45,015 bases of DNA from NCBI GenBank assembly GCA_016471375.1, contig WGLZ01000055.1:1-45015 (forward strand), in the 5' to 3' direction. Below, piece after piece: positions 13,167 to 31,532 of the stretch. Under the pieces are notes generated by a model. That model searched no databases and was not told the DNA's origin. It was given only the letters and a program-made list of their open reading frames with translations. The stretch is from Cyanobacteria bacterium RI_101 (GTDB lineage: Bacteria > Cyanobacteriota > Cyanobacteriia > Cyanobacteriales > Microcystaceae). The position numbers and the translations under genes were made by a program. Numbering within the stretch: the first letter of the stretch is position 1; each line of letters opens with the position of its first letter.

Positions 13167-13616
13167 ATGAACAAAGAACAAGCCATTCATGTTGTAGAAC
13201 ATTTACGAGGAAAACGTCTTTCATCGCTAGAGACAATGATTTTAGCGGAAGCTTGGGACGATCAATCTTATGAGTACATTGCGGAAATCAGTCAACGCGA
13301 ATGCCAGTATGTGAAGAAAGTCGGCGCTCGTCTCTGGCGAGAGGTCTCCGAGTTGACCGGCGCCTGGATCAATAAGCGCAATTTCTGCTCGGCCATGCGG
13401 CGCTACTACTACAACCAGTTACCTCAGACCGACCGCTGTCGCTTACTCGCCGTCAGTTGGGAAGGCGCCGTCGGCGGGGAAAAACAGACCTCTCAATTGC
13501 TTGGTTCCTCGGTTAAAAACTCTTGCTTTTTACCGGTAATCCCAAAGCGTTCTGTCCTGAGCAAGGCCGAAGGGAGTCGAGGGGGCGATAATTCCCGGCA
13601 GATTAGACAGGTTTAA
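13167..13616 (+). CDS. stand-alone N-terminal domain of cyanobacterial STAND/vWA-MoxR conflict proteins
   Basis: A 149-residue protein. The first ~80 residues (EQAIHVVEHLRGKRLSSLET, SYEYIAEISQRECQYVKKVG, LWREVSELTGAWINKRNF) match the helix-turn-helix-like module I recall at the N-terminus of large cyanobacterial NB-ARC/WD40 and vWA-MoxR-associated proteins. Here it is not followed by an NTPase; the tail is low-complexity and partly encoded by a REP-like palindrome (13556-13581), so the gene may be a decayed remnant. ATG 13167 fits the family start; ATG 13104 would add 21 residues. Its stop overlaps that of the WYL gene by four bases (TTAA). Confidence 0.6.
   Translation: MNKEQAIHVVEHLRGKRLSSLETMILAEAWDDQSYEYIAEISQRECQYVKKVGARLWREVSELTGAWINKRNFCSAMRRYYYNQLPQTDRCRLLAVSWEGAVGGEKQTSQLLGSSVKNSCFLPVIPKRSVLSKAEGSRGGDNSRQIRQV
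13556..13581. repeat. REP-like GAGC..GCCGAAGG motif inside a coding tail
   Basis: CTGAGCAAGGCCGAAGG followed by GAGTCGAG, a dispersed motif frequent in many bacteria. It encodes LSKAEGSRG at the C-terminus of the gene at 13167, which argues that this part of the protein is not ancestral. Confidence 0.5.
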
Positions 13617-14527
13617 GGGACGACTCTTTGGACAACCCAAGCCGGGGAGATGACTTGCGCCAGGGCGCCGTACTGGAGCATACGCTGGCGAAACCAGAAG
13701 AGATAATCCTCTGGGCTGGCTAGCTCGACGTAGTTTTCCGCTAGGTTGCGCTGGATTACTTTCTCCCGGCGCCGGCGGGGTTGGTAATGGGCGAGGGCGC
13801 CGGTTAAGCGGTAGCGGATGGTCAGTTCGGGAAAGCTGGAAAACGTCCAGCGAGTCCGGGAGACAGCGCCGACGCTTAAAATTCGGTCGAGGCGAAAGAG
13901 GCGATTTTGCTCGATATTCGGGGTTTTCAGAAATTCGGGAGACGGCGCGTCGGGAACGTAGGCGAACAGGTACAGACTACCCTGATGGAGTCGCAATTCG
14001 GCGCGGTCTAGCTCCCACTCTTTTTCGTTGCCCTGGGCGCTGTGGTAATGGAGGGTAAAGCGGCGCTGTTGTTTTAGGCGCTCTTGGATTTCCGCCATCC
14101 GCGCCCGCAACGCCGGGGAACTGTAGTCGGCGGGGGGAGAGAAGTCGGTATGAAGGTCGGCGGGGCGGTCGCTTTCTCTGAGAGGGGCGATGAGACTAAG
14201 TTGCCCGGCGTGGTGGTTAAAGCCCAGATCTTCGAGAAGTTGGGCGGCTAGCGCTAGGGCCTGTCTTTGCTCGGCGGTGAGGAGGACGGGAAACTGGGAT
14301 TCTCGAAGTTCGTAGGGGCGGTTGGGGGCGCTGTCGATGACAAAGCCGCAGTCCCGCAGGCGGGCGATGGCTCGGGTGAGTTTTTGGGGGACGTCTTCCG
14401 CGGATTGTCCCTTTTGCTCTAGGAATAGTTCCAAATGTTCGGCTAGTTCTTTGCGGCGCCAATTGCGCTCTGCCAAGGCTTTGAGAATTTCCAAGGCGAA
14501 GCCCAGTTGGTTAAAGGTGGAAGGCAT
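13613..14527 (-). CDS. WYL-domain transcriptional regulator of the type I-D locus
   Basis: A 304-residue regulator. Residues ~5-75 form a winged-helix DNA-binding region (LEILKALAERNWRRKELAEH, LTRAIARLRDCGFVIDSAPN); the WYL ligand domain spans ~140-240 (RFTLHYHSAQ, LYLFAYVPD, RLFRLDRI). Divergent WYL regulators are standard beside cyanobacterial type I-D loci; in Synechocystis 6803, sll7009 next to CRISPR1 represses crRNA accumulation. ATG 14527 is chosen over a TTG five codons upstream. The shared region to cas3 (14528-14760) probably carries its operator. Confidence 0.85.
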   Translation of the reverse strand: MPSTFNQLGFALEILKALAERNWRRKELAEHLELFLEQKGQSAEDVPQKLTRAIARLRDCGFVIDSAPNRPYELRESQFPVLLTAEQRQALALAAQLLEDLGFNHHAGQLSLIAPLRESDRPADLHTDFSPPADYSSPALRARMAEIQERLKQQRRFTLHYHSAQGNEKEWELDRAELRLHQGSLYLFAYVPDAPSPEFLKTPNIEQNRLFRLDRILSVGAVSRTRWTFSSFPELTIRYRLTGALAHYQPRRRREKVIQRNLAENYVELASPEDYLFWFRQRMLQYGALAQVISPAWVVQRVVP

Positions 14528-14585
14528 ACATTTAAAGAACAAGATGTTGTCCGATTTTGACTATGACCTCCAGAATAAGGAGGAT

Positions 14586-14690: not shown

Positions 14691-14760
14691 ATGACGGATG
14701 TCAATGTAAATGGAGTTGATTTACCCACTTCCCCGAAAACACACTCTACACACTTTTTGT

Positions 14761-16935
14761 ATGTTGGATTATCAGATTGAGCTTAAACCCGTTTACTCCG
14801 CTCCGGCGCCGGTTCTGCCCCCAGGCGTTCAATTACCAGTGGGATGGTCGTCTCTAGCTTGGCATCAGGCTGAAACCTTTGCGGCGCTTAACAATCCAGA
14901 AATAAACGTTATTTTTAATACGGCGATGACTGGGGACGGAAAAAGCCTAGCGGCCTATTTGCGGTTATTTTGCGTTAAAGATTCCTGCGCCATTGGCCTC
15001 TATCCCACCAATGAGTTAGCCAGGGATCAAGAAATGCAACTCTCTAATTATATTGAGAAGTTCGATCCGGCGCTAAAACCTCGCCTTCATCGCTTGAACA
15101 GCGCCGAGTTGGAGCTTTACAGTGAAAATGAAGGACTACAGAAAAGCGCCGCTTTGTTGAGTCGGGCGGGACAGTCGGAAATTCTGCTGACAAATCCCGA
15201 TATTTTTCACTATTTGCATCATGGCTGTTACCTAACCTGTTACGATAATCCAGACCGACTCTGGGGTCAGATTGATAAGGACTTTGAACTGATTATTTTC
15301 GACGAGTTTCATATTTTTTCTGCGCCCCAGGTATCGAGTATTATCAATTTACTGCTCTTGATACGCTGTACCAATCGGTTTAAAAAATTTCTCTTCCTGT
15401 CGGCGACGCCTAACGACAGTTTTATCGAAAGTTTACGGCGGTCTGGTTTTCGCTGTCAGGTGATTGATCCGCAAAAAATGAAAGCCTATCAACATCCAGA
15501 AAGTCTAAGGCAGGCAGAGGCGTTAACGGATCAAAACTGGCGGCAAGTGGTCAGAAAAATTAATTTAGCTTTTATGCCTATGGATTCCGGCGCTAATTTT
15601 GCTGAAAAATGGCTGAAGGAGCATCCCGAAGCGGTTCTAGAGCAACTTCAAGAGCGGGGCAGTAAAGGGGCGATTTTACTCAACTCCATCGCCTCGGTTA
15701 AACGATTAACTCCCTTTTTTCAAGCTTTTCTCCAACCCCACGGGTTCACGGTGGGAGAAAATACCGGCTTATCGGGCAAATCCCAGCGGCAAGTTTCTCT
15801 CCGATGCGATCTCGTGATTGGCACCAGCGCCATTGATGTGGGCATTGATTTTAAAATTAATTTCCTCTTCTTTGAATCCGCCGACTCGGGCAACTTTATT
15901 CAACGACTCGGGCGGTTAGGTCGCCATGACGGCGCTTCGTCAGAATTTCCTTTTCAATCCTTTCGGGCCTTTGCCTTTGCGCCTCAGTTTTTTGTCGAGC
16001 GCCTATTTTTGGGAGAACAGCCTCCTCTCTCTGTTAGTCAAAGCTATGAGCGCCCTCTTTTCCATCGGATTGTGGAGGATAACTACCGCAATATCAATAC
16101 TTTTCAGTCTTATCACCCCCGCTGGGGCAGTCTGCAATCCTTTCAGTTATTTCTAGATCTCAACCGTAAAGAAATTCGGCAAGCCTATGAAGAGAGTCGT
16201 CGAGCGTTTCGGGCGGGATGCGAGGCGGCCTTTAACGTCAACTTGGGTAAAGTGGGGGCACGGTTTCAGGGACTAGACCGAGAGTGGCGGGAAATTTCGG
16301 GAAAAAACCAACGCAGTCCCATTAATGAGGAAGCCAGTAAGTTTAGAGGCTCTGGCGGCTTACAGTGCGGACTCTACGATTTAACCGAAACCAATGAGCT
16401 AGAGAGGTTTAAGCGCTATGATCTACCGGGCGTTTTAAGCCATCTTGAAATTGAAACGCTCTCGGAGGCGGAATTTAAGCGCTTGTTGGCCGGCGCCGAA
16501 TCCAGAACCGGCCAAACCATTGCCAAGGGACAGTTTAAGTATTGCCTAGGATTTATGAAGCTTCTGGGTTATCGAGAAGAGCGCCTTAACTGGAAATTTA
16601 TCCACAACGGAGACGTCTGCGAGTTGAGCGACCGCTGGCAAGTTCAGGTGGTTCAAGACTTGGAAGTGTTTCAGCCGGAGAACCCTTGGATTCGGGAACT
16701 CAACCGGCGTTTGAAAAAACAGGCGCTCGTGGCATATGTGTTGCCCCGTCCGGTGGCGGAGGTTAGGGCAAGGCTCCAGTTGCCCCTGCACTTTCAGCTT
16801 TATCCCCTCTGCGATCTCCGCAGTCTCCACGACGGAGCGGCGCCGTATTCTATCGCCTTTGGGCAGAGCGCCTTGATGATTGAGACTCAGGCTTACTGTT
16901 TTAAGCAGAAAAGCCCTCAAGCAATTATTATTTAA
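14761..16935 (+). CDS. cas3: type I-D CRISPR-associated helicase Cas3 (Cas3d)
   Basis: A 724-residue superfamily 2 helicase that unwinds target DNA after Cascade binding. Motifs are in order: Walker A TGDGKSLA (57-64), DEFH box (181-184), SATP (214-217), and motif VI QRLGRLGR (380-387) after DVGIDFKINFLFF. There is no HD nuclease domain, as expected for I-D, where the HD is in Cas10d. I start at ATG 14761 because homologues I recall begin MxxYxIxLKPVYS; ATG 14710 would add 17 atypical residues. It is first gene of the effector operon, 19 bases before cas10d. Confidence 0.92.
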   Translation: MLDYQIELKPVYSAPAPVLPPGVQLPVGWSSLAWHQAETFAALNNPEINVIFNTAMTGDGKSLAAYLRLFCVKDSCAIGLYPTNELARDQEMQLSNYIEKFDPALKPRLHRLNSAELELYSENEGLQKSAALLSRAGQSEILLTNPDIFHYLHHGCYLTCYDNPDRLWGQIDKDFELIIFDEFHIFSAPQVSSIINLLLLIRCTNRFKKFLFLSATPNDSFIESLRRSGFRCQVIDPQKMKAYQHPESLRQAEALTDQNWRQVVRKINLAFMPMDSGANFAEKWLKEHPEAVLEQLQERGSKGAILLNSIASVKRLTPFFQAFLQPHGFTVGENTGLSGKSQRQVSLRCDLVIGTSAIDVGIDFKINFLFFESADSGNFIQRLGRLGRHDGASSEFPFQSFRAFAFAPQFFVERLFLGEQPPLSVSQSYERPLFHRIVEDNYRNINTFQSYHPRWGSLQSFQLFLDLNRKEIRQAYEESRRAFRAGCEAAFNVNLGKVGARFQGLDREWREISGKNQRSPINEEASKFRGSGGLQCGLYDLTETNELERFKRYDLPGVLSHLEIETLSEAEFKRLLAGAESRTGQTIAKGQFKYCLGFMKLLGYREERLNWKFIHNGDVCELSDRWQVQVVQDLEVFQPENPWIRELNRRLKKQALVAYVLPRPVAEVRARLQLPLHFQLYPLCDLRSLHDGAAPYSIAFGQSALMIETQAYCFKQKSPQAIII

Positions 16936-16954
16936 CTATAGTGGAGGTGATTTT

Positions 16955-19900
16955 ATGCCAAATCAAAACCCCAATCAACAGCTAGAACTGTTTCTTTCCC
17001 AATCCGCTAGTTCAGACCTGATCCCAGATATCAACGAAGATTTTCCAGAACTTGATCTCGATAATCTTGACAATGATGATTTTGGTCAAACGGACAGCGC
17101 TGCGCCGAGTATCCCGACAGAAAAGCCGGAGCTTCTGACCCTCAAACTCCTGCGGCAAGCCATTAAAGCTCAAAACCCAGAGGATCGGGTGATGGAGGAT
17201 TTTGCCGATTTAGTTTTGCCCCAGTTGTTAAACATTGCTATTGGGGAAACGGCTAAAGGCGGTCAATTTTTTGACGAGTTAGATCGTCAACGAGCCAAGG
17301 CGGGAAAAGAGCGAGTCCGGCGGGACAACGCCGGGGATCAATCCCTTAACACCCATCTGTTAAATGGCTTATTTCCCGCTAACTTTATCTATCAGCGCCT
17401 TCAGAAATTGGATAATACTCTGAGTCGGAACAGCGACGAGTTGAGTCATCGGTTAACAGTTGCGGGTTTTATCCTGCATGATTATGAAAAGTTTCCCGAC
17501 GTACCCAATGACGCTAAAAATTTATCCACCGAAGCGGAGAAGGCACTGGTTCGGGAGAAAATTCTGCAATTAAACCTGAATCAATTGATCAATCCAGAAG
17601 ATCCTGATTTTTACGAGCAATACTTAGACGATCTGCTGGTGTTGATTCGCAACACCCAACGGCGCTGGGGAACCAATTGGAACTTTTCGGACTATGGCTT
17701 AAAACCTCAATTACGCCCTCGACTCCTGCGGCAGATGACGGATCTCTGTTGTCTAGCGGATTCCTTCGCCTCGATTATCAAACATCCCCAGGACTCAGTT
17801 AAAACCAAATTTACGGAGTTAATGCACGGCTTAAGCGATGGGCAACTTAGTTTAACCTATCATCATTTAACGGAAAATCGGGGAGTGTTAACCAACATCG
17901 TCAATAACGCCGTGATGGATCTCTACACGGAAAGTAATACCGATACAACCTATTACGCTCCTTTGCTTTATCTACCTACCGGCGTTATTTATTTGCAAAC
18001 CCGTCAAGCGCCGACTATCGAAGTTCAAGGGTTAGGAAATCGAGTCATCAAAAAAATTCAAAGCCTTTGCTTTCGACAACTCCAAGCTCGACAAACCGGC
18101 TTTAGTCGAGATGGTAAAGGGCTAAAATACGCCGATTACTACACGCTTTTTTGCGATGATCGGGGCTTAATGGAAATCGCGCTAGACGCCACTCTGCGGA
18201 TTTTAAATGCCAGTAAAAAGTCTGTAGCGCCGGCCCGGACAGAAAAATTAGAAGCGTTTCAAGCTTTAGGTGTTTTATCCCAAGAGGCTGACTTTTCCCT
18301 AAAAAATGATCTACGGATGGATCAGTTAGCCGAGTTTGGCGACGCCGTCTGCCGTAATATTTGGGGCGACCGTCGGGAAAAGTTAGAAGCCTTAGTTAAG
18401 GAAAGGACTCAAGCTAGGAAACAAGATAAAACCTTGCCGGCGCTTCCTCCAGTCGAGTTGCCCACAACCGAGCTAGTTCACAAAGTTGCGGAATTTTGGC
18501 GACTGACCGAATACTTACCCCAAATTCGGGAAATTCAGCAGATCAATGAATCCCTAAAAGCGCAAAAGTTAAAGGGCAACACCGGGGGCGTGCCCTACGA
18601 ATGGTATTATCTAGCGACTCGCTACCTTGAAAAAAATCCCGGTCTAGAAACTATTCGGGAAACGGCGGAGGACTTAATTGAGTTTGTCGCCGGTCTGATT
18701 GAGCCGATTATTGAACAATACGCGGCGCTGGACGGCTGGCAGGATATGCGGGACTGGGTTCAGCGGGTCGTAATTTTACCCCAACAAACCCTTGCCTCCT
18801 CTGAAGATCAGCTTCATATTTTCAGCAAAGAACTGAACGCCTACAGCGCCGCTAAAAAGCAAGGTCGGGGTAAAGAAATCATTTGCTCAATTTCCCATTC
18901 GGCCTACACCGTCACAGAGCAGATGGAATCGGCGGTGCTCTTTACGCCGCAAGTTTACACCAATAAACAACATTTAGGAGGAGCCAACGCCAAGCGCAAT
19001 ATTTCCAGCATCGCCGGCATTGAGATGATGCTTCGGCAAATCCTAATGAATCAAACCCAAGCCGTCGGCAAGCGTTTTGAGGATGGTAAATACCGTTACC
19101 TGTATTTCTATCCAACCTATTACTTCACGCCGGAGACCAATAAGTTTCTGCACCAAGCCTACAAGGATATTTTCCAAACCCGTTTTGACGTCAGTTTGAG
19201 GAATCATTTTATTTCCCTCAAAGACGGCGCTAATTTTACCAAGGAAAACTATCAAAACGCTGATCTGTTTTTAATGGACGAGCAATTAAATCAGAAAAAG
19301 GCGCTGGCGGAAGACGATCCAGCCCATAAACGAGACCGAACCTTTAAACTGGCCTACCCCGACGATCAGCCCTTGACCTTTTATTTCATGGCGTTGCCTC
19401 CGGGTAAAGATCCAACGGATACGGAATCCTGGGTTATGCCCGCTTGGTTAGCCTTTGCCGCGCCGATTATTCTAGACGTGAAAACCGTCGTTTCTGAATC
19501 GCCAATTCCGCCCTTTACCGACGGCGCCGAATTTGAAGAAACGGTCTTTTTAGACAGCGCCCCCCAAGCCTTCCGGGTCTTAACCGGCGCGGATCGATTC
19601 CGTCTGGACTCGATTTTGAAGGGCTGGCAAGACGATCAAGACAACCGACATCCGGCGCCGCTCAATATGTTAACCGCCGCCTACGCTATTCATTTAGACG
19701 TTAACGCCAAAAAAGGCAAAGGAGGGTATGACCCCAACTGGGGCAAATTAACGGAACTGGCTAAGGATTTAGAAACCAGTCCTCTCTATGTTTTTCATTA
19801 TCTCAGTCGATGGTCAAGGAAACAGGATCAGGACGCCCCTAGCGTTCAAAAAATTAAGCTCTATGCTTATCACTTTTATCCCTGTTTTGACCCCCATGTT

Positions 19901-20404
19901 CGTTTTGAAAATGACCAATTACATCTAGCGCCCCTATCTCCCATGAACCATCCCAAAGAATTAACCCGACTGTATCGAGAGTTTTATCGCGCTCAGAAGT
20001 CCTTTAGCCCCAAAGCTAATGCGGTTCTGAAACCGATTGACGTCGCCGCCAAGGCGATTTTAGAAGCGGATAACTGCCTGATGGAGCCGGAAGTTTTAGT
20101 CTCTGTCGTGGCGGCGGAAGTTTCTAAACTGATGGATCGAGTTCATAGTTCCACCGCCGAAGGTCGTTGGATTTTTACCAATCAGGAGCGGGAACAAGAA
20201 CGGCAGGCGATTCTGGAATTTGCCCAATACTTTGTGATTGAAGTTTTTCAAAAAGGCTTTAAGGGCGACCGCGCCCGTTTAGCCGGTAAGCAGTTAAACC
20301 TCATCCGCGATACCTGCGAATTTCTCTATCGCCTAGAACAGGATCAGGAAAATCAAGAGTATCAAGCGGCTAAAAAGCTGGCTGAAGAGGAGGAGGAAGA
20401 CTAA
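16955..20404 (+). CDS. cas10d: type I-D large subunit Cas10d (HD nuclease-bearing)
   Basis: A 1149-residue Cas10d (Csc3), the large subunit of the I-D effector that recognises the PAM and, with its HD domain, cleaves DNA. The HD signature is visible: H134 (LNTHLLNGLF) and H175-D176 (GFILHDYEKF). No GGDD cyclase motif is seen, as expected for Cas10d. The start is firmly ATG 16955, preceded by GGAGGTG with ideal spacing; an upstream in-frame ATG inside cas3 is not used. Residues 20-60 are strongly acidic, and the C-terminus ends EEEEED. Its stop overlaps the next ATG by one base (TAATG). Confidence 0.93.
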   Translation: MPNQNPNQQLELFLSQSASSDLIPDINEDFPELDLDNLDNDDFGQTDSAAPSIPTEKPELLTLKLLRQAIKAQNPEDRVMEDFADLVLPQLLNIAIGETAKGGQFFDELDRQRAKAGKERVRRDNAGDQSLNTHLLNGLFPANFIYQRLQKLDNTLSRNSDELSHRLTVAGFILHDYEKFPDVPNDAKNLSTEAEKALVREKILQLNLNQLINPEDPDFYEQYLDDLLVLIRNTQRRWGTNWNFSDYGLKPQLRPRLLRQMTDLCCLADSFASIIKHPQDSVKTKFTELMHGLSDGQLSLTYHHLTENRGVLTNIVNNAVMDLYTESNTDTTYYAPLLYLPTGVIYLQTRQAPTIEVQGLGNRVIKKIQSLCFRQLQARQTGFSRDGKGLKYADYYTLFCDDRGLMEIALDATLRILNASKKSVAPARTEKLEAFQALGVLSQEADFSLKNDLRMDQLAEFGDAVCRNIWGDRREKLEALVKERTQARKQDKTLPALPPVELPTTELVHKVAEFWRLTEYLPQIREIQQINESLKAQKLKGNTGGVPYEWYYLATRYLEKNPGLETIRETAEDLIEFVAGLIEPIIEQYAALDGWQDMRDWVQRVVILPQQTLASSEDQLHIFSKELNAYSAAKKQGRGKEIICSISHSAYTVTEQMESAVLFTPQVYTNKQHLGGANAKRNISSIAGIEMMLRQILMNQTQAVGKRFEDGKYRYLYFYPTYYFTPETNKFLHQAYKDIFQTRFDVSLRNHFISLKDGANFTKENYQNADLFLMDEQLNQKKALAEDDPAHKRDRTFKLAYPDDQPLTFYFMALPPGKDPTDTESWVMPAWLAFAAPIILDVKTVVSESPIPPFTDGAEFEETVFLDSAPQAFRVLTGADRFRLDSILKGWQDDQDNRHPAPLNMLTAAYAIHLDVNAKKGKGGYDPNWGKLTELAKDLETSPLYVFHYLSRWSRKQDQDAPSVQKIKLYAYHFYPCFDPHVRFENDQLHLAPLSPMNHPKELTRLYREFYRAQKSFSPKANAVLKPIDVAAKAILEADNCLMEPEVLVSVVAAEVSKLMDRVHSSTAEGRWIFTNQEREQERQAILEFAQYFVIEVFQKGFKGDRARLAGKQLNLIRDTCEFLYRLEQDQENQEYQAAKKLAEEEEED

Positions 20405-21015
20405 TGCAAAAATTAATGAATCCCAATGAAACCTATACTTTTAGCCGTTTCTTTGAGCTAAAGTTTTCGGCTCGCAATCTGGCCCAGGAATTTGGCTACG
20501 AGTTTGCCAGAACGGCGCTGGACTTGCCTCGATATTCAGGGGAGCTTGATAGGCTTCAGGAAACCTACAAACGAATCTCAGAAGTCCTCCCCTATATCAA
20601 CTTGTCCCGCGAGGCTTCCCGACGAGAAGTCTTAATCGCTCCGGTTATTCTAGACTTGGTTTATTACACCAAAGCCGAGCTAGAAATTGAGTTTTCCCTG
20701 AAAGTTAACCAACATCTCCAAGGGGTGATTGATTACTTTTTGGAATCTCAAAAAAGCTTTCTGATTGTGGAAGCTAAGCGGGAAGACCTCGATTTTGGGA
20801 TGACTCAACTGATTGCGGAACTCATCGCCCTTGACGCTTGGCTAGAGGATACCTCTCAAACCGAGTTGCTCGGCGCCGTAACCACTGGCAAATCCTGGGA
20901 GCTTGCCCTACTCCGGCGCTCTGAAAAACTGATTCTTCAGGGTTTACAGAGCTATCGAGTTCCTGAAGATTTAGAGGAATTGATGAGAATTTTGATTTTG
21001 GCTTTGCAATCTTAA
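20404..21015 (+). CDS. PD-(D/E)XK nuclease-like protein within the type I-D operon
   Basis: A 203-residue protein that is not a standard I-D component. It shows the PD-(D/E)XK pattern: E75 in a helix (ASRREVLIAPVI), D110 (LQGVIDYFL), E123-A-K125 (SFLIVEAKRED), then Q135 (FGMTQLIAEL). This order of acidic residue, D, ExK and a following Gln-containing helix is typical of restriction-endonuclease-fold proteins such as the N-terminal region of type I restriction R subunits. It overlaps cas10d by one base (TAATG) and precedes csc2 by 68 bases, so it is co-expressed with the effector. A nuclease role in interference or adaptation is inference. Confidence 0.7.
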   Translation: MQKLMNPNETYTFSRFFELKFSARNLAQEFGYEFARTALDLPRYSGELDRLQETYKRISEVLPYINLSREASRREVLIAPVILDLVYYTKAELEIEFSLKVNQHLQGVIDYFLESQKSFLIVEAKREDLDFGMTQLIAELIALDAWLEDTSQTELLGAVTTGKSWELALLRRSEKLILQGLQSYRVPEDLEELMRILILALQS

Positions 21016-21083: not shown

Positions 21084-22085
21084 ATGTCTCTGCTTAAATC
21101 TCTCAAGCCCAACTTCTTCCACGCCGAAATTCCCAGTAAACCCATGGGGAAATACGCCCACTTCTTAACCGTGCGGATCACGGAATCCTATCCGCTTTTT
21201 CAAACAGACGGGGAACTGAATAAAGCGCGGGTGACGGCGGGTGTTATCGAAAAAAGCATGATTAGTCGCCTAGCCATGTTTAAGCGTAAACAATCCACCC
21301 CAGAGCGCCTAGCGGGTCGCGAACTTCTGCGGAATTATGGCTTAATGACGGCGGAAGAGTGCGAATATAACGAGAATTTCGCTAAGAACAATCCCGATTG
21401 TATTATTTACGGCTTCGCCATCGGAGACGCCGGTTCCGAAAAATCTAAAGTCGTGGTTGACACCGCCTTTTCTATTACCGCCTTCGACGAATCCCATGAA
21501 ACCTTTACCCTCAACGCTCCCTACGAAAGCGGCACCATGAGCAAACAGGGTTCGGTCACAAGCCGGATTAATCAACAAGATCATATCCGCCCCCAGGTTT
21601 TCTTTCCCAGTATCGTCACGCTTAAAGACCCCACTGAAGCCACTTTTCTCTATGTGATGAATAATATTCTGCGGACTCGTCACTACGGCGCTCAAACGAC
21701 TCGCACTGGCCGAGTTCGCAATGAAATGATTGGCGTTATTTTCGCCGACGGGGAAATTGTCAGCAACTTACGCTGGACGCAGAAAATTTACGACTTGATG
21801 ATCTCTCAAGGGCAAATTAATCCCCCCGATCCTCTACAAGAAGACGAAGTGATGACTTCGGCTCAAGCGGCAATTTCTGAACTCTTAACGGAGGAATCCA
21901 TTGTGCATACTGATTTTCTGGGTGAGGCGCTAGCGCCGCTCTTGACTGAAGTGAAGGCGCTGACGGCTACGGAAGAGGGGATGACCGCGTTGCTCCGGGC
22001 GGCGGATCAAGACGCTAAAGCGTATTACAACAAATACGTTAAAAAGCCGGAAAGCAAAAACAAAAAAGCCTCAGAAGCTAATTAG
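21084..22085 (+). CDS. csc2: type I-D Cascade backbone protein Csc2 (Cas7d)
   Basis: A 333-residue Cas7-family protein that coats crRNA in multiple copies. It begins SLLKSLKPNFFHAEIPSKP and contains SYPLFQTDGELNKARV and TRHYGAQTTRTGRVRNEMIG, the latter being a hallmark of Csc2. The C-terminal ~60 residues are helical and Lys-rich. A ribosome binding site (AAGAGG) precedes ATG 21084. It is followed 14 bases later by csc1 with its own AGAGGA site, consistent with independent high translation of the backbone. Confidence 0.93.
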   Translation: MSLLKSLKPNFFHAEIPSKPMGKYAHFLTVRITESYPLFQTDGELNKARVTAGVIEKSMISRLAMFKRKQSTPERLAGRELLRNYGLMTAEECEYNENFAKNNPDCIIYGFAIGDAGSEKSKVVVDTAFSITAFDESHETFTLNAPYESGTMSKQGSVTSRINQQDHIRPQVFFPSIVTLKDPTEATFLYVMNNILRTRHYGAQTTRTGRVRNEMIGVIFADGEIVSNLRWTQKIYDLMISQGQINPPDPLQEDEVMTSAQAAISELLTEESIVHTDFLGEALAPLLTEVKALTATEEGMTALLRAADQDAKAYYNKYVKKPESKNKKASEAN

Positions 22086-22099
22086 AGGACAGTAAAGCC

Positions 22100-22816
22100 A
22101 TGACTATCATTTATCTCTGTAACCTAGAGCTTCATGATAGTCTCTATTTTGCCACCCGCGAAATTGGGAGACTATACGAAACTGAAGCCGTTCTGCATAA
22201 TTACGCCTTAGCTTATATTTTAGGGTTTGTCGATAATCCTAAATATAATACTAGTGTTGGGGAGGAAGATGCGTATCGCTATTTTTGCGCTGAGCAAGTG
22301 CCTAAATATAAGCAACAGTTGGAACCGCTCAACGCTCAAGGGATTTACATTACTCCCGCTAGAGCCAGACATCATACTTCAGTCTTAAATACCTGGAAGT
22401 ATGCGGACAATCATTACCATGTCGAGATGAAACCGACTTCAAAAAATATTCCTAGCTTTGGTCGAGCTAAAGAGATCGCCCCGGAGAGCGAGTTTGAATT
22501 TTTTGTCATTTCTAACCATGAACTTGATTTTCCCCGCTGGGTCAGAATGGGTAAATGGGCTTCAAAAGCCTTACTTAAAACTCGCCCTTTAGAAATCAAG
22601 ACCCAACACACATCAGGAGAATTTATCTTCCCCTATCCCCTTAACCCATTAGATGTTATGGGCGTTCATCAAGTGTTAAGTTTTGACACCATCAACATGC
22701 CTCCAGTTAGTCTAATTCAGAATGTCAGAATTGTAGGAGAACATTGGACAATTACTGATACTAATTTTTCAAGCCTACAAATTCCTCGCAATCTCCGCTA
22801 TTGTTTCCGCTCTTAA
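22100..22816 (+). CDS. csc1: type I-D Cas5-like protein Csc1 (Cas5d-type)
   Basis: A 238-residue RAMP-family protein that caps the 5' handle of crRNA in the I-D complex. The N-terminus TIIYLCNLELHDSLYFATRE and the following LYETEAVLHNYALAYILGF are diagnostic for Csc1. It lies between csc2 and cas6, the usual I-D order, with only six bases to the cas6 ATG. No truncation or frameshift is seen. Confidence 0.92.
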   Translation: MTIIYLCNLELHDSLYFATREIGRLYETEAVLHNYALAYILGFVDNPKYNTSVGEEDAYRYFCAEQVPKYKQQLEPLNAQGIYITPARARHHTSVLNTWKYADNHYHVEMKPTSKNIPSFGRAKEIAPESEFEFFVISNHELDFPRWVRMGKWASKALLKTRPLEIKTQHTSGEFIFPYPLNPLDVMGVHQVLSFDTINMPPVSLIQNVRIVGEHWTITDTNFSSLQIPRNLRYCFRS

Positions 22817-22822
22817 GCCGAT

Positions 22823-23662
22823 ATGCCCTACAGCCTAGTCATTAACTTTGTCCCCCAAGCGCCGATTTCCCTAGCCCATTTAAGCGGGCGTCATGTTCAC
22901 GCATTATTCCTAGATCTCGTCAGTTCTGTAGATCGAAAATTGGGAACGGCGCTCCACCTTCAGGAGAAAGAAAAAGCCTTTACCCTCAGTCCCATCCAAC
23001 TCAAACTGAATCAAAAATTATTACAGTGGAGCTATCGGCGCCCCATCGAAGCTGGCGTTCCCTGTTGGTGGCGCGTGACTTTGCTAGACGACGATTTATT
23101 CGGTCAATTAGCGGATTTATGGCTCAATATGAACCCCAATCAAGCTTGGCAGTTGGGGGCGACGCCGTTAAATCTCATGAGTATTCTTGCCACGCCCCAG
23201 CGCCAACAGCCTTGGGCGCAATACTTATCCTACGACGCCTTATACGAGCAGGCGCTAGACGGAACCGATAGCGAAACCGCTCAACAGGCCCGCAAGCTTA
23301 ATTTTACGTTCTGCACCCCCACCGCTTTTCGTTATAGCCAATATGATTCCTGTTTACCGGATCGAGATTCTGTTTTTCGTAGTCTCTTACGGCGCTGGAA
23401 CCGCTATAGCGGCAATCCCTTCCACGAGACGATTTTTGAGTCGATTTATCCCAGTTTTTTCAATATTAAAACGGAGATTGTCAATGATGATCGCAGTAAG
23501 TTTATTGGCTGTGTCGGCGATATTAGCTACAGCATTCTGGGACAGGTCGATCCACAAACAATTAAACAAATTAACGCCCTCGCTAATTTTGCCTTTTTTG
23601 CGGGCGTGGGGCGAAAAACGCCTATGGGAATGGGGCAGGTTCAGATGACAGATATCAGATGA
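22823..23662 (+). CDS. cas6: CRISPR pre-crRNA endoribonuclease Cas6
   Basis: A 279-residue Cas6 that cuts within the repeat hairpin to give crRNA. The C-terminal glycine-rich loop is clear (FFAGVGRKTPMGMGQ, residues ~258-272). H24 and H26 (SGRHVHALFL) are candidates for the catalytic histidine. The last codons and TGA stop (M-T-D-I-R-stop) are made of the 7-bp repeat tract that fills the gap to the next gene, so the native C-terminus may have been altered by repeat insertion. Confidence 0.92.
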   Translation: MPYSLVINFVPQAPISLAHLSGRHVHALFLDLVSSVDRKLGTALHLQEKEKAFTLSPIQLKLNQKLLQWSYRRPIEAGVPCWWRVTLLDDDLFGQLADLWLNMNPNQAWQLGATPLNLMSILATPQRQQPWAQYLSYDALYEQALDGTDSETAQQARKLNFTFCTPTAFRYSQYDSCLPDRDSVFRSLLRRWNRYSGNPFHETIFESIYPSFFNIKTEIVNDDRSKFIGCVGDISYSILGQVDPQTIKQINALANFAFFAGVGRKTPMGMGQVQMTDIR

Positions 23663-23738: not shown

Positions 23739-24113
23739 ATGGAACCGGTATTAGGCGATCGCAGTGTTGGCTATAATAAGGCGTATCAGCTAGCGATTCG
23801 GGTTGTGAACGCTTATCGGTACTTGACGGATGAAAAGAAAGAGTTTGTTTTATCTAAACAATTTTTACGATGTGGAACTTCTATCGGCGCTAATTTAGCT
23901 GAGGCTCATGGCGGAATTTCTACGGCGGATTTCTCGGCTAAGGTTGCTATTGCTTATAAGGAATCTTTAGAAACAAAATACTGGATCGCTTTACTTCGAG
24001 ATACTGGGTACTTTGATGAAAAGGCGGCGGAAAGTCTTTTTAAAGATGTGGATGAAGTCAGTAAAATTCTTTTTGCTGTCTTAAAAAAGACAAGGCTCAA
24101 TTCCAAAACTTAA
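23739..24113 (+). CDS. four-helix-bundle protein (S23/IVS, Avd-like) inside the cas operon
   Basis: A 124-residue four-helix bundle. The family signature is clear: KQFLRCGTSIGANLAEAHGG and YKESLETKYWIALLRDTGYF. Relatives are encoded in 23S rRNA intervening sequences, and the Avd proteins that partner reverse transcriptases in diversity-generating retroelements share the fold. It has its own ribosome binding site (AGGAG, 8 bases upstream). It is flanked by heptamer tracts at 23641 and 24122 and carries a canonical HIP1 octamer (GCGATCGC, 23755-23762), the only one I noticed in the window, so it looks imported. No reverse transcriptase is nearby. Function in CRISPR immunity is unknown. Confidence 0.88.
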   Translation: MEPVLGDRSVGYNKAYQLAIRVVNAYRYLTDEKKEFVLSKQFLRCGTSIGANLAEAHGGISTADFSAKVAIAYKESLETKYWIALLRDTGYFDEKAAESLFKDVDEVSKILFAVLKKTRLNSKT

Positions 24114-24156: not shown

Positions 24157-24747
24157 ATGGATGATTATTTGCCGCTGGCTTACTTGAATGCTTGGGAGTA
24201 TTGCCCCCGACGGTTTTATTTTGAATATGTGTTAGGTGAAATGGAGATTAATGAACATATTATTTATGGGAATCATCTCCATCGCAATATTGATCAAGCG
24301 GGTACTTCTGTTGAGGGAGATCTACGGATTCATCGGCAACAATGGGTCTGGAGCGAGCGCCTCAAGGTAAAGGGGATTATTGACGCAGTGGAGGAAACGG
24401 ATGGGTTACTGATTCCAGTGGAGTACAAAAAAGGAAAAATGGGAAAACATCTCAATGATCATTATCAACTCTGCGCCGCGGCGTTATGTCTGGAGGAACG
24501 TCTCGGTCAATTTATCCCCTACGGCGAAATATTTTACTACGGCAACCGGCGCCGGCAACAGGTGGAGTTTACGCCGCTTTTGAGACAACAAACGGAAACC
24601 GCTATTCAATCGGCGCTGGCCGCCATCAATAACCCGATGCCCCAACCGATTGAAAATCGCAAAAAATGCCAAGATTGTAGTTTAAATCGGATTTGTCTTC
24701 CCAATGAACTCAAAAAACTGAAAATTCAGATTTCAGATGACAGATGA
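24157..24747 (+). CDS. cas4: CRISPR adaptation nuclease Cas4
   Basis: A 196-residue RecB-type Cas4 that trims prespacers and selects the PAM. Iron-sulfur ligands are C16 (YCPRRF) and C171, C174, C180 (CQDCSLNRIC). The nuclease core is D76 (GIIDAV), E89 and K91 (VEYKKGK) and Q104 (HYQLC). All catalytic residues are intact. The tail QISDDR-stop is encoded by a heptamer tract, as in cas6. Cas4 next to cas1-cas2 fits PAM-dependent acquisition. Confidence 0.94.
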   Translation: MDDYLPLAYLNAWEYCPRRFYFEYVLGEMEINEHIIYGNHLHRNIDQAGTSVEGDLRIHRQQWVWSERLKVKGIIDAVEETDGLLIPVEYKKGKMGKHLNDHYQLCAAALCLEERLGQFIPYGEIFYYGNRRRQQVEFTPLLRQQTETAIQSALAAINNPMPQPIENRKKCQDCSLNRICLPNELKKLKIQISDDR

Positions 24748-24840: not shown

Positions 24841-25818
24841 ATGTCTACACTTTATCTGACTCAACCCGACGCTGTTTTAAGTAAAAAGCATGAAGCGTTT
24901 CATGTGGCGATTAAACAAGAGGATGGCCAATGGAAAAAACAATCGATTCCGGCTCAAACTCTGGAGGATATTGTGCTTTTGGGTTATCCCAGTATTACGG
25001 GTGAGGCCTTGGGCTATGCGTTAGAGTTGGGTTTGCCGATTCATTATTTATCGAGTTTTGGCAAATATGTCGGCTCGGCTTTACCCGCCGAGTCTCGCAA
25101 TGGTCAACTGCGCTTATGCCAATTCCGCGCCCATGAAGACCCAAGTCAACGCCTAGCGATTGTCCGGTCTATTGTGCGGGGAAAAATTCATAATCAGTAT
25201 AATCTACTCTACCGTCGAGGGGAAAGGGATAATCCCTTAAAAGACCGGGAAAAGTTGGCTTTGCAAAAAAGTTCTCTGGATGAAGTCCGGGGCGTGGAGG
25301 GCATAGCCGCAAGGGATTATTTTGCTTGCTGGCAGACAATGTTGGGTAATGATTGGCAGTTTACGGGTCGTTTTCGGCGCCCGCCCACCGATCCGGTGAA
25401 CGCGTTATTAAGTTTTGGCTATGGTCTGCTACGGACGCAGGTGGTGGCGGCGGTTCATGTTGCGGGGCTTGATCCTTATATTGGGTTTTTACACGAAACA
25501 ACTCGCGGACAACCGGCGATGGTTCTGGATTTAATGGAGGAATTTCGTTCCCTTATCGCCGATAGCGTCGTGTTAACGGTTCTGAATCAAAAGGAAATTA
25601 AACCCAAGGATTTTACGGAAAGTCTCGGCGCTTTTCGTCTAACAGATAGCGCAATTAAGGTCTTTCTCGGCGCTTTTGATCGTAAGTTATCTTCGGAGTT
25701 TAAGCACCCCAGTTTTGGCTATCAGTGTAGCTATCGTCGGGCTATCGAGTTGCAAGCGCGTCTGATGGCGCGACATTTACAGGAGGGGATTGTGTATGAG
25801 CCACTGATTATCAGATGA
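24841..25818 (+). CDS. cas1: CRISPR integrase Cas1
   Basis: A 325-residue Cas1 that integrates spacers together with Cas2. Metal ligands are E153 (VRGVEGIAARDYF), H218 (GFLHETTRGQ) and D230 (AMVLDLMEEF). Length and N-terminal beta domain are normal. The last residues (IIR-stop) fall in a heptamer tract, giving the same AGA-TGA ending as cas6 and cas4. It is separated from cas2 by 218 bases, unusually far for this pair. Confidence 0.96.
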   Translation: MSTLYLTQPDAVLSKKHEAFHVAIKQEDGQWKKQSIPAQTLEDIVLLGYPSITGEALGYALELGLPIHYLSSFGKYVGSALPAESRNGQLRLCQFRAHEDPSQRLAIVRSIVRGKIHNQYNLLYRRGERDNPLKDREKLALQKSSLDEVRGVEGIAARDYFACWQTMLGNDWQFTGRFRRPPTDPVNALLSFGYGLLRTQVVAAVHVAGLDPYIGFLHETTRGQPAMVLDLMEEFRSLIADSVVLTVLNQKEIKPKDFTESLGAFRLTDSAIKVFLGAFDRKLSSEFKHPSFGYQCSYRRAIELQARLMARHLQEGIVYEPLIIR

Positions 25819-26036: not shown

Positions 26037-26330
26037 ATGTCTACGCTTTTTTACTTGATTATCTATGATCTGCCTTCGACTAAGGCGGGGAATAAGCGCC
26101 GAACTCGTTTGTTTAGCTTACTCTCTGGCTATGGCTCTTGGCGGCAGTTTAGTGTTTTTGAATGCTTTTTGAACACTAAGCAATTTGCGGCGCTACAAAC
26201 GAGAATTGAAAAGTTAATTAAGCCTGACGAGGATTCCATTTGTATTTATGTGCTCGACGCTGGCGCCGTTAAGCGGACGATTGCCTACGGGACGCCAAAA
26301 CCAGAGGAACCGACTAGCATTATTCTGTGA
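26037..26330 (+). CDS. cas2: CRISPR adaptation protein Cas2
   Basis: A 97-residue Cas2 with the ferredoxin-like fold; it bridges two Cas1 dimers during spacer integration. LIIYDLPSTKAGNKRRTRLF carries the conserved aspartate (D11) and the basic helix, followed by GSWRQFSVFECFL. The start MSTLFYL resembles that of cas1 (MSTLYLT). It ends 212 bases before the first CRISPR repeat, so the leader lies immediately downstream. Confidence 0.95.
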   Translation: MSTLFYLIIYDLPSTKAGNKRRTRLFSLLSGYGSWRQFSVFECFLNTKQFAALQTRIEKLIKPDEDSICIYVLDAGAVKRTIAYGTPKPEEPTSIIL

Positions 26331-26542: not shown

Positions 26543-29500
26543 CTTTCTATCAACTAATCCCGGCGCTCGGGACTGAAACAGCCCGAAGTCGGTATTTAGC
26601 GCCGGTTTTTTTTTCTTTCTATCAACTAATCCCGGCGCTCGGGACTGAAACAAAAGCCTTTGTCCGTGAGCATTTCGGGGAACTTGACGCTTTCTATCAA
26701 CTAATCCCGGCGCTCGGGACTGAAACTAAGCAAGTCATATACTGCGATTTTCCCATTTTTAGCTTTCTATCAACTAATCCCGGCGCTCGGGACTGAAACA
26801 GGACAAAAAAATGATTATTCATGTTTACGCTGGCCTTTCTATCAACTAATCCCGGCGCTCGGGACTGAAACAACTCCCAATCAACTCAAACTGGGGACGG
26901 CGCTGACTTTCTATCAACTAATCCCGGCGCTCGGGACTGAAACCCCCGCCCATCAGAAGGGCAAAAACAGAAGTCGGCAACTTTCTATCAACTAATCCCG
27001 GCGCTCGGGACTGAAACTGCTTGGAATATTTTGGCGAGTCTAACGAACGCTTTCTATCAACTAATCCCGGCGCTCGGGACTGAAACCGGAGTCTGCTTTT
27101 CTAGCGTGGTAGTGTAGATTACTTTCTATCAACTAATCCCGGCGCTCGGGACTGAAACCAAAAAAACATCCACTATGACCAACTCATTCTGCTTTCTATC
27201 AACTAATCCCGGCGCTCGGGACTGAAACTCAAGTATGGGGAGATATCACAAGAGCAGTTTACGCTTTCTATCAACTAATCCCGGCGCTCGGGACTGAAAC
27301 TTAATGCAGGCGTCCCACGCTTCACGGGGAGCAGCGCCTTTCTATCAACTAATCCCGGCGCTCGGGACTGAAACTTTTCTCTAAGCAGATTTGGACAATT
27401 TGTAGCGCTTGCTTTCTATCACCTCATCCCGGCGCTCGGGACTGAAACCCGTTAAAGCCCGCCAGTCCCTAGACCAGTTCAAGTCTTTCTATCAACTAAT
27501 CCCGGCGCTCGGGACTGAAACCTTTCCATGATGTTTAATTGGGGTTTAGGTTTACAACCTTTCTATCAACTAATCCCGGCGCTCGGGACTGAAACTCGGG
27601 AAGCTCAGCAAGTTCGTACTCATCTAAGACTTTCTATCAACTAATCCCGGCGCTCGGGACTGAAACAGTGATTTAGCGGCTCTTTCAACCCATACCCTTA
27701 TACTTTCTATCAACTAATCCCGGCGCTCGGGACTGAAACATATCAATTCTAATCCAGAGTTAGATATGGGATATGCTTTCTATCAACTAATCCCGGCGCT
27801 CGGGACTGAAACATTTTTGAAGGAAATGGATTGCTGAAACTTGTTGTCCTTTCTATCAACTAATCCCGGCGCTCGGGACTGAAACCCAAAGAACGGCTAT
27901 CAAGGAAAAGACCGCAAGAACTTTCTATCAACTAATCCCGGCGCTCGGGACTGAAACTGGATTAGAATTGATATAACAAGACAAGAGGGCACATGCTTTC
28001 TATCAACTAATCCCGGCGCTCGGGACTGAAACCGGTTGCGCTTCTCTGTCAAGGGCAAGCGGTACTGCTTTCTATCAACTAATCCCGGCGCTCGGGACTG
28101 AAACTCGATGTCACGCATTAGACAACAACCCCCCGCGCCGACTTTCTATCAACTAATCCCGGCGCTCGGGACTGAAACGTGATAGCCCGCTTGACGCTGG
28201 CCCTTGTCTCTGCCTTCTATCAACTAATCCCGGCGCTCGGGACTGAAACATTTCCGTGACGGGATGGAAATTCCCTCAGTAGGTGAACAACTTTCTATCA
28301 ACTAATCCCGGCGCTCGGGACTGAAACATTTCGATAGCGTCGAAAGGAAATTTTTCAGAGAATGCTTTCTATCAACTAATCCCGGCGCTCGGGACTGAAA
28401 CTCAAGACCTTGCGCCGCCGCCGCCGCCAATACTACTTTCTATCAACTAATCCCGGCGCTCGGGACTGAAACTCAGCACCAGCAAGATCCAGGCGATTAA
28501 TCTAGCTTTCTATCAACTAATCCCGGCGCTCGGGACTGAAACCCGGCCCGTTCTCCGTCTTGGCAATGCTTCGACTCGATAACTTTCTATCAACTAATCC
28601 CGGCGCTCGGGACTGAAACTCAAGACCTTGCGCCGCCGCCGCCGCCAATACTATCTTTCTATCAACTAATCCCGGCGCTCGGGACTGAAACCCTATTCCT
28701 ATCCCAGACGACGAACCATGCCCTAATACTTTCTATCAACTAATCCCGGCGCTCGGGACTGAAACCTTATTGTTTCATTTAGTTGGATTATCCTTAGCCT
28801 TCTTTCTATCAACTAATCCCGGCGCTCGGGACTGAAACGAGACACGAACGCCGCTACGAATTTTGGGAATCCTTTCTATCAACTAATCCCGGCGCTCGGG
28901 ACTGAAACCCGCCGCTTATTGCTCGCCTCGATTATCTCTCAGCTTTCTATCAACTAATCCCGGCGCTCGGGACTGAAACTCCTATTTATGCTGGCTTCCA
29001 AGCCGGGTGTGGTATTCTTTCTATCAACTAATCCCGGCGCTCGGGACTGAAACTGGAATAATTGACCAGATTCTAAATTATCTGCAATTTCTTTCTATCA
29101 ACTAATCCCGGCGCTCGGGACTGAAACATCATCAATTACGAAAAACATTAATTAATTTAATTCTTTCTATCAACTAATCCCGGCGCTCGGGACTGAAACT
29201 TTCCGTTGGTTTTTCCGTCAGTGCTCGAACTTCGTCGGCTTTCTATCAACTAATCCCGGCGCTCGGGACTGAAACTCATTTGGCGGTCGGTGACCCGGTT
29301 GACCCGACCGGCTTTCTATCAACTAATCCCGGCGCTCGGGACTGAAACCTGAATATTATCGTTACCTTGTTACTCTGCGTAAGGCTTTCTATCAACTAAT
29401 CCCGGCGCTCGGGACTGAAACCTGGTAGAGTTTCGACATAACCAGGAATAAACTCTCTTTCTATCAACTAATCCCGGCGCTCGGGACTGAAACAACGGTT

Positions 29501-31532
29501 CGCTCTATTTTGCGCTTGGTATCTCGCCAGCTTTCTATCAACTAATCCCGGCGCTCGGGACTGAAACAAAACCGCCCTAGGAAAGTTCCTAGATTTTATT
29601 ACTTTCTATCAACTAATCCCGGCGCTCGGGACTGAAACAAAACGCTAGAACGTAAAATAAACCTACTTGAGAGGCTTTCTATCAACTAATCCCGGCGCTC
29701 GGGACTGAAACAGGAATGCCCAGCGGATACCTTTACAGACAAATCCTTTCTATCAACTAATCCCGGCGCTCGGGACTGAAACCCGACCGCCTAGGGACGA
29801 GTTCACAGCGAACCGGGCTTTCTATCAACTAATCCCGGCGCTCGGGACTGAAACATATAAGTTAATGCCCTTTACTTAATTAATTATCACTTTCTATCAA
29901 CTAATCCCGGCGCTCGGGACTGAAACCCATGGAAACTTTGGAACGGGAAAAACTTTAGGATCTTTCTATCAACTAATCCCGGCGCTCGGGACTGAAACTA
30001 TTATAAGGCGCATTAAATTACAAAAAAACGGGGACTTTCTATCAACTAATCCCGGCGCTCGGGACTGAAACCCCGAACTGCAACTGAGCACCCAAAAAAC
30101 CCGGACTGCTTTCTATCAACTAATCCCGGCGCTCGGGACTGAAACAATAACCCCCCGCCGGAGCGAGGGGAGAGCCACATCCTTTCTATCAACTAATCCC
30201 GGCGCTCGGGACTGAAACTCAAGCCCATTGCTAAAGAGCAGAGTGTCTTCCTCGTCTTTCTATCAACTAATCCCGGCGCTCGGGACTGAAACAGGGCGGG
30301 CAATTTTCCCCGGCGGTTAGGTTGGCGGCGGCTTTCTATCAACTAATCCCGGCGCTCGGGACTGAAACTTGGGGCGGAGATTCACGTCCCCAGAGAGGAG
30401 AGCTTTCTATCAACTAATCCCGGCGCTCGGGACTGAAACTAGTTGGCAATGTTCAGCCCACAGATACTATCGCAACTTTCTATCAACTAATCCCGGCGCT
30501 CGGGACTGAAACGCCTTTTTAGGTTTCTTAGATCCGCCCCCGTTTTCTTTCTATCAACTAATCCCGGCGCTCGGGACTGAAACCCATTTGGGCAAGATAA
30601 AGGGCACGGCGCCGCCAGGCTTTCTATCAACTAATCCCGGCGCTCGGGACTGAAACGCTATCCATCGCCCAAGCGGCCGACGCGGCGCTCGCTTTCTATC
30701 AACTAATCCCGGCGCTCGGGACTGAAACTCCCGTAGGTTGTCCATCTCACAATTTCGGATTGCTTTCTATCAACTAATCCCGGCGCTCGGGACTGAAACT
30801 TTTTTATTGCCTTGCTATCGCCTTGGGAAGCAATAGCTTTCTATCAACTAATCCCGGCGCTCGGGACTGAAACTGGTCAGGGTCGAGGAGAGGGAGTGGC
30901 ATTTACAACTTTCTATCAACTAATCCCGGCGCTCGGGACTGAAACTTGTGGCCGCGTAGGCCGTGGATCGTCGCTGACTTCTTTCTATCAACTAATCCCG
31001 GCGCTCGGGACTGAAACTTGGTTGGGCTGAATTTAATCGTATGATGGAATTGGCTTTCTATCAACTAATCCCGGCGCTCGGGACTGAAACAAGTCAGAGT
31101 TAAACGCAGAATAAGAACTAATGCTTTCTATCAACTAATCCCGGCGCTCGGGACTGAAACAAAGCCTTAGGAACAATTAAACCAGAGGGAAAAGTCAGAC
31201 TTTCTATCAACTAATCCCGGCGCTCGGGACTGAAACTCTAGCGACAATAATTGGAGATTGGGAAGAGGAAAAACTTTCTATCAACTAATCCCGGCGCTCG
31301 GGACTGAAACCTGGAACCAATTAGAACAACTCTTCAACTAACCATACTGGGGGCTTTCTATCAACTAATCCCGGCGCTCGGGACTGAAACCTGGAACACT
31401 AACCCTAGACTTCCCCACTAACACTTTCTATCAACTAATCCCGGCGCTCGGGACTGAAACTTCTGCTTCTTTTTTAATCCAACAATCAGATAAAACTTTC
31501 TATCAACTAATCCCGGCGCTCGGGACTGAAAC
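26543..31532 (+). CRISPR. type I-D CRISPR array, 69 repeats and 68 spacers
   Basis: The repeat is 37 nt, starting CTTTCTATCAACTAATCCCG and ending GGGACTGAAAC. It forms a 5-bp hairpin TCCCG-GCGCT-CGGGA, leaving the 8-nt handle ACTGAAAC. From memory it closely resembles the CRISPR1 (I-D) repeat of Synechocystis 6803. I counted 69 repeats by eye. Spacers run 32-43 nt, mostly 34-37. Only two repeats vary: number 13 (27412-27448, A to C at positions 11 and 14) and number 24 (28213-28249, T to C at position 2). The last repeat (31496-31532) is perfect. Spacers 26 and 29 are duplicates, and spacers 17 and 20 overlap on opposite strands. Confidence 0.98.

Follow-up and report, generated by a model that had tools for sequence, protein, structure and literature searches.

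Between cas10d and csc2 of a type I-D CRISPR (clustered regularly interspaced short palindromic repeats) operon of Cyanobacteria bacterium RI_101 lies a gene for which the comparisons reported here support the role of a selected, recurrently acquired and portable accessory nuclease gene. It occupies positions 20404..21015 (+) of the stretch of 45,015 nucleotides that was analysed (contig WGLZ01000055.1, hereafter the window), and is called here the PD gene, its product of 203 residues, P0001, being a predicted PD-(D/E)XK nuclease with conserved active-site residues. This open reading frame and its overlap with cas10d had been described in an earlier reading of the letters alone (the sequence-only reading) and were found as described: the ATG of the PD gene and the stop codon of cas10d are shared as TAATG, and the motif GAGGAGG stands just 5' of them, within Glu codons of the Glu-rich 3' end of cas10d. 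The annotated start is backed by the fact that most of 15 relatives begin at almost the identical residue.

The AlphaFold model of the protein (pLDDT, predicted local distance difference test, 94.6) contains the alpha-beta-beta-beta-alpha-beta core that defines the PD-(D/E)XK superfamily, with E75, D110, E123, K125 and Q135 falling on the elements where they are expected, which bears out both the restriction-type fold and the placement of these residues proposed in the sequence-only reading. In an alignment of 70 members of the family (A2), E75, E123 and Q135 are present in all 70 and D110 and K125 in 69, and in a smaller alignment of 51 members including the window protein (56 rows minus five distant or short ones) E75, D110 and E123 are found in 51 and K125 and Q135 in 50. 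The pattern is not due to chance, because it is conserved across the aligned members. The PADLOC model PDLC01472, named 'PD_DExK' and labelled CAS-associated, was matched by P0001 at 2.4e-23 and by 70/70 members of A2 at E <= 0.001 (the library gives no cut-off), so that a matching model is already catalogued there, without function, position or subtype. Our literature searches, with supplements and most subscription papers outside their scope, rendered no description of a gene between cas10d and csc2. Searches with the window protein of PHROGs and, by sequence, of the PDB gave no match. Two other identities were considered and rejected, namely Cas4 (TIGR00372, 16.8 bits against a cut-off of 65; hhalign probability 3.2%) and Uma2 (PF05685, no match in the Pfam search; hhalign probability 0.2%).

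Among the nearest relatives (the best 80 of 222 in named genomes), 32 are located in cas loci, 31 of them recognized with profiles derived from I-D loci; the remaining one belongs to a type III-D locus (L233). The subtypes that host the family are I-D, I-B and this single III-D: in the loci L057 and L061 (also numbered L199 and L217, respectively) the effectors are of type I-B, Cas8b scoring more than 1000 bits, and in L055 the gene stands beside a Cas10d of another I-D lineage. The 31 loci contain 37 copies (two belonging to a distant sister family), distributed as 24 at the cas10d/csc2 junction, six at cas3/cas6, three at csc1/cas6 and one each at csc1/end, cas3/csc2, end/csc2 and cas10d/end, while none of the 37 was found at cas3/cas10d, at csc2/csc1 or inside cas4-cas1-cas2. 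Two Pseudanabaena plasmids carry the gene in I-D loci, one at cas10d/csc2 and the other between cas3 and cas6. The linkage to cas loci thus exceeds chance and involves recurrent positions, as corresponds to a CRISPR accessory gene. One member is found in a contig of a Gammaproteobacteria metagenome-assembled genome that bears a cyanobacterial-type I-D locus (L234) and is probably misbinned.

The PD gene is nonetheless not a core component of I-D systems, since most I-D loci do not have it. At least 89 of 386 cyanobacterial genomes, including that of the window, contain a family member, and csc2 is present in 71. A survey of 77 csc2 genes (69 loci plus nine fetched earlier; overlapping sets, in which L199 = L057, L207 = L059, L217 = L061, L226 = L065 and others, were kept unsummed, csc2 fragments from G051 and G383 and a single one from G231 being omitted) showed canonical cas10d directly preceding csc2 in 40, with the PD gene in between in four of these (L054, L058, L059 and L065); the window is a fifth occurrence outside that count, so the gene is an addition to the operon, as the sequence-only reading had held. 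In L060 it is placed between csc1 and cas6. The 57 cas10d-csc2 junctions without the gene have a median gap of 49 nucleotides and a maximum of 457, so that no other gene of such size is found at them. No other type I system is reported to be as prevalent in cyanobacteria as type I-D, whose five effector genes have been used in genome editing (PMC11903412). In L135 and L138, a single locus holds a tandem of two I-D effector modules from distinct lineages.

The distribution of the gene on trees indicates that, to judge from sequence, entries into and departures from cas loci have been numerous in this dispersed, multi-copy cyanobacterial family, which has been recruited recurrently. On a tree of 70 members (of 84 available sequences, with L233 counted as unlinked), 16 changes in linkage to cas genes were required, of which well-supported branches force 12, against a shuffled mean of 22.5; in a csc2 tree with 65 rows, 15 changes in the presence of the gene were needed, 13 being forced. 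The independent gains are fewer than these counts, because the changes include losses. A close view of one such change is offered by L054, which has the gene, and L133, which does not: they share 97% identity along 3.4 kb ending 54 nucleotides before the cas10d stop and 92% along 2.7 kb starting 3 nucleotides before csc2, and the intervening segment differs. L192 and L144 form a second pair of similar operons (about 89% identity) differing in the PD gene. Insertion edges were judged by eye in six operon pairs. PD-(D/E)XK homing enzymes, such as I-Ssp6803I, occur in cyanobacteria, and it is conceivable, although we consider it unlikely, that the PD gene has no CRISPR role and is a dispersed nuclease gene of a semi-selfish kind, similar to homing or Uma2 genes, that parks between the genes of operons. 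This is the main non-functional alternative. Its presence or absence in operons otherwise 92-97% identical is compatible with homing and is no proof of it, and the dispersed, multi-copy nature of the family, the existence of one preferred junction, the 48 of 80 nearest relatives that lie outside the cas loci seen and the appearance of Uma2 in five of 147 screened neighbours would all be in keeping with a gene of this kind.

On the other hand, the cas-linked copies are under purifying selection as far as sequence comparison can tell, also where the neighbouring effectors have been exchanged. Nine loci carry near-identical copies, seven from Nostocales and two from genomes with the same family label. 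Canonical cas10d precedes the gene in five of them (L058, L202, L204, L207 and L228) and other effectors do so in the remaining four (L055, L199, L205 and L209), in which, among the matches listed, similarity to the canonical locus starts 26-133 nucleotides upstream of the start codon and the last cas10d codons persist as an upstream relic. In L199 and L205 a relic of the last 40 csc1 codons lies directly 3' of the PD gene, and in L197, from Phormidium, a cas10d relic of 59 residues precedes it. Upstream effectors were thus exchanged in Nostocales while the PD gene stayed intact: none of the nine reading frames is interrupted, and dN/dS (the ratio of non-synonymous to synonymous divergence) is 0.04-0.14 in 36 pairs. 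Moreover, 35 of the 37 cas-linked copies are full length within their contigs and the other two reach a contig end, and at least nine decayed copies with in-frame stops, as well as the broken L244 and L251, are outside the csc2 loci found. No relative was found in phage records or, by a peptide-pattern search, in IMG/VR, which also speaks against a selfish gene. The intactness of the cas-linked copies is not decisive in this respect, because an active homing gene would look intact too.

Persistence beside exchanged effectors also bears on the relation to Cas10d. The distance between cas10d and the PD gene is at most 3 nucleotides in 15 of 23 other pairs (among them L192, for which the longest open reading frame was used, and L197, in which cas10d is a remnant) and 8-191 nucleotides in the remaining eight; given this, the persistence of the gene without canonical cas10d and its occurrence once in a III-D locus, the proposal that it is made in proportion to Cas10d found no support in that form. 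The residues H135, H176, D177, D227, D270 and H304 of Cas10d are kept in 28/28 Cas10d sequences from loci with the PD gene (two genomes being counted twice under two locus names) and in 36/36 from loci without it; which of these His and Asp residues, conserved in the HD domain, are catalytic is something we infer. A role of the PD gene as a stand-in for a dead Cas10d nuclease was discarded, the HD residues being alike with and without the gene, as was the idea of an unusual charge at the tail of Cas10d (p = 0.14). Since these residues are kept, the PD nuclease would add an activity and not replace one.

In the window the gene is part of a complete I-D set, in the order cas3d-cas10d-PD gene-csc2-csc1-cas6-four-helix-bundle gene-cas4-cas1-cas2, followed by the array:

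14710..16935, +, cas3d, the I-D helicase Cas3' (TIGR03158, 8.2e-103; PDLC02028, 1.9e-190)
16952..20404, +, cas10d/csc3 (TIGR03174, 4.9e-280; the start codon at 16952 was picked by us)
20404..21015, +, predicted PD-(D/E)XK accessory nuclease gene (P0001, 203 residues; ATG start; E75, D110, E123, K125, Q135)
21084..22085, +, csc2 (cas7d; TIGR03157, 4e-104)
22100..22816, +, csc1 (cas5d; TIGR03159, 2.1e-57)
22823..23662, +, cas6d (PDLC02042, 6.8e-128)
23739..24113, +, four-helix-bundle (23S rRNA IVP family) gene in the cas6/cas4 interval (PF05635, 2e-27)
24157..24747, +, cas4d (PDLC02034, 8.8e-88)
24841..25818, +, cas1d (TIGR04093, 3.8e-134)
26037..26330, +, cas2d (PDLC02027, 1.6e-34)
26543..31532, +, CRISPR array (69 repeats of 37 nucleotides, spacers of 32-43 nucleotides)

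A divergent gene encoding a WYL-domain regulator is found 5' of cas3d (13613-14542). Within the array, the repeat-spacer units at 28365-28435 and 28583-28653 are identical across 71 nucleotides, constituting a near-duplicated spacer, and no exact full-length duplicate spacers were found in it. The four-helix-bundle family recurs in or near the cas6/cas4 junction in L106, L116, L122, L137 (two copies), L154, L184, L192 and L264, part of these being weak matches.

Comparison of the window with L184, from Limnothrix, whose PD gene is 73% identical and located at the same junction, rendered a dN of 0.192 for the PD gene, in the range of the operon (cas10d 0.195, csc1 0.186, cas4 0.178, csc2 0.143, cas1 0.116, cas3d 0.347), dS being saturated for nearly all genes. 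L137, a close csc2 relative of L184, lacks the gene.

As to what the nuclease would do, our best explanation, which we hold tentatively and at somewhat under an even chance, is that of a small nuclease that adds to the destruction of target DNA across several type I effectors, useful but dispensable. The protein would be expressed from the operon along with Cascade and would cut or trim DNA exposed by Cascade and Cas3', partnering several type I effectors and not being a dedicated Cas10d subunit; usefulness combined with dispensability could account for the gain and loss of the gene. We infer an aid in target destruction because most of the identified hosts are type I loci bearing Cas3 and the gene lies within the effector operon.

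Several observations weigh against this explanation. At the cas10d/csc2 junction, 36 of 40 canonical I-D loci do not have the gene. Neither of the two refuting results named in the sequence-only reading (a structure lacking the restriction-endonuclease fold, or a random distribution unlinked to I-D loci) came about, but 48 of the 80 nearest relatives are not seen near cas genes. Among the 49 loci in which no I-D-type cas gene was recognized, both flanks exceed 5 kb in 30 and one flank measures at most 5 kb in 19, so that family members probably act without CRISPR too. One copy is in a III-D locus (L233, 7995-8621), between a gene for a Csm3-like fusion and a membrane CARF gene, with Csx19 also in the locus. 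The csc1-tail relics are still in frame, which makes the effector swaps look recent and retention in Nostocales weaker evidence than it appears. The four-helix-bundle gene, a possible passenger, has a dN of 0.213 against L184, and a similar dN is therefore weak proof of a CRISPR role; for this reason we gave less weight to an interference role and more to a selfish gene. Finally, to judge from sequence, aid to interference and aid to adaptation fit the data alike.

Adaptation is the main functional alternative, the nuclease trimming prespacers beside Cas4 or instead of it. We regard this as rather improbable: the window encodes Cas4, the cas4-cas1-cas2 segment contains none of the 37 copies, and, as a mild argument, L054 (genome G002) is an I-D effector locus that has an intact gene with no adjacent cas4, cas1 or cas2 and no array by a crude scan, cas1 being elsewhere in the genome. 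A guard or abortive effector, that is, a nuclease triggered when CRISPR is blocked or a phage is met, along the lines of the anti-anti-CRISPR role suggested in the sequence-only reading, would suit a small nuclease embedded in an operon and the relative that adjoins drmD of DISARM in plasmid C of Trichormus variabilis (L266, 8986-9600). It seems very improbable, since the gene has survived intact the replacement of canonical cas10d, which is difficult to reconcile with a module that guards Cas10d, the 203-residue model has no room for a separate sensor domain, and no neighbour family accompanies the non-CRISPR copies at a fixed position. In 79 loci no fixed partner of these copies was found, the largest neighbour clusters (9, 8 and 7 loci) being common families at varied positions, and the commonest Pfam families among the neighbours screened (147 of 180 genes, Uma2 being the top one) are mostly non-defence, with PADLOC families taken from the first 25 of 141, so that further defence genes may be hidden. 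It could also be the case, which we consider quite improbable, that the portable nuclease stays put amid the exchange of effector modules and promotes these exchanges by its cutting, thereby driving the turnover of CRISPR modules, a reading suggested by the breakpoints upstream of the start codon in the four Nostocales loci mentioned above.

Should some natural I-D operons include a second, coupled nuclease, the addition or removal of a single gene would allow a test of how it affects cutting or the uptake of spacers, and the pairs of similar operons with and without it (L054/L133 and L192/L144) would constitute a natural experiment. The persistence of the gene beside swapped effectors may, in addition, serve as a marker of the reshuffling of CRISPR modules.

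With regard to known systems, PDLC01472 describes the same nuclease core and is likewise catalogued as associated with CRISPR loci, but its best fit (about 1e-52) is not the window family. It is a second, distant PD-(D/E)XK sister family (L061, 10684-11310; L065, 9050-9670; L173, 7942-8559), which in two cas loci forms a tandem pair with the close family. The genome to which the window belongs also contains a member of this sister family, on a different contig and with no recognised cas gene adjoining it. The nuclease domains of DrdV, BpuSI and HsdR (PF13588, HSDR_N_2) are also among the nearest known systems, and the window protein differs from those enzymes in having no methylase or helicase domain and in having an extra N-terminal part. 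Animal mitoribosomal chains that we take to be mL37 and mL65, eukaryotic ribosomal proteins that pair as a pseudo-dimer, are 7-10% identical to it. The I-D locus of Synechocystis plasmid pSYSA shares the gene set and the order cas3-cas10d-csc2-csc1-cas6-cas4-cas1-cas2, but goes straight from cas10d to csc2, as the sequence-only reading had stated, with a gap of 65 nucleotides and no gene inside. The typical gene set given in a review of type I-D systems has no such nuclease gene, and effector genes are described there as shuffled and adaptation genes as conserved (PMC10212523). Genes of the Uma2/DUF820 group resemble the PD gene in being dispersed, in having the PD-(D/E)XK fold and in lying within or beside cyanobacterial CRISPR loci, as in the case of the Uma2 genes that are reported to sit inside III-B loci of Microcystis (PMC11855584).
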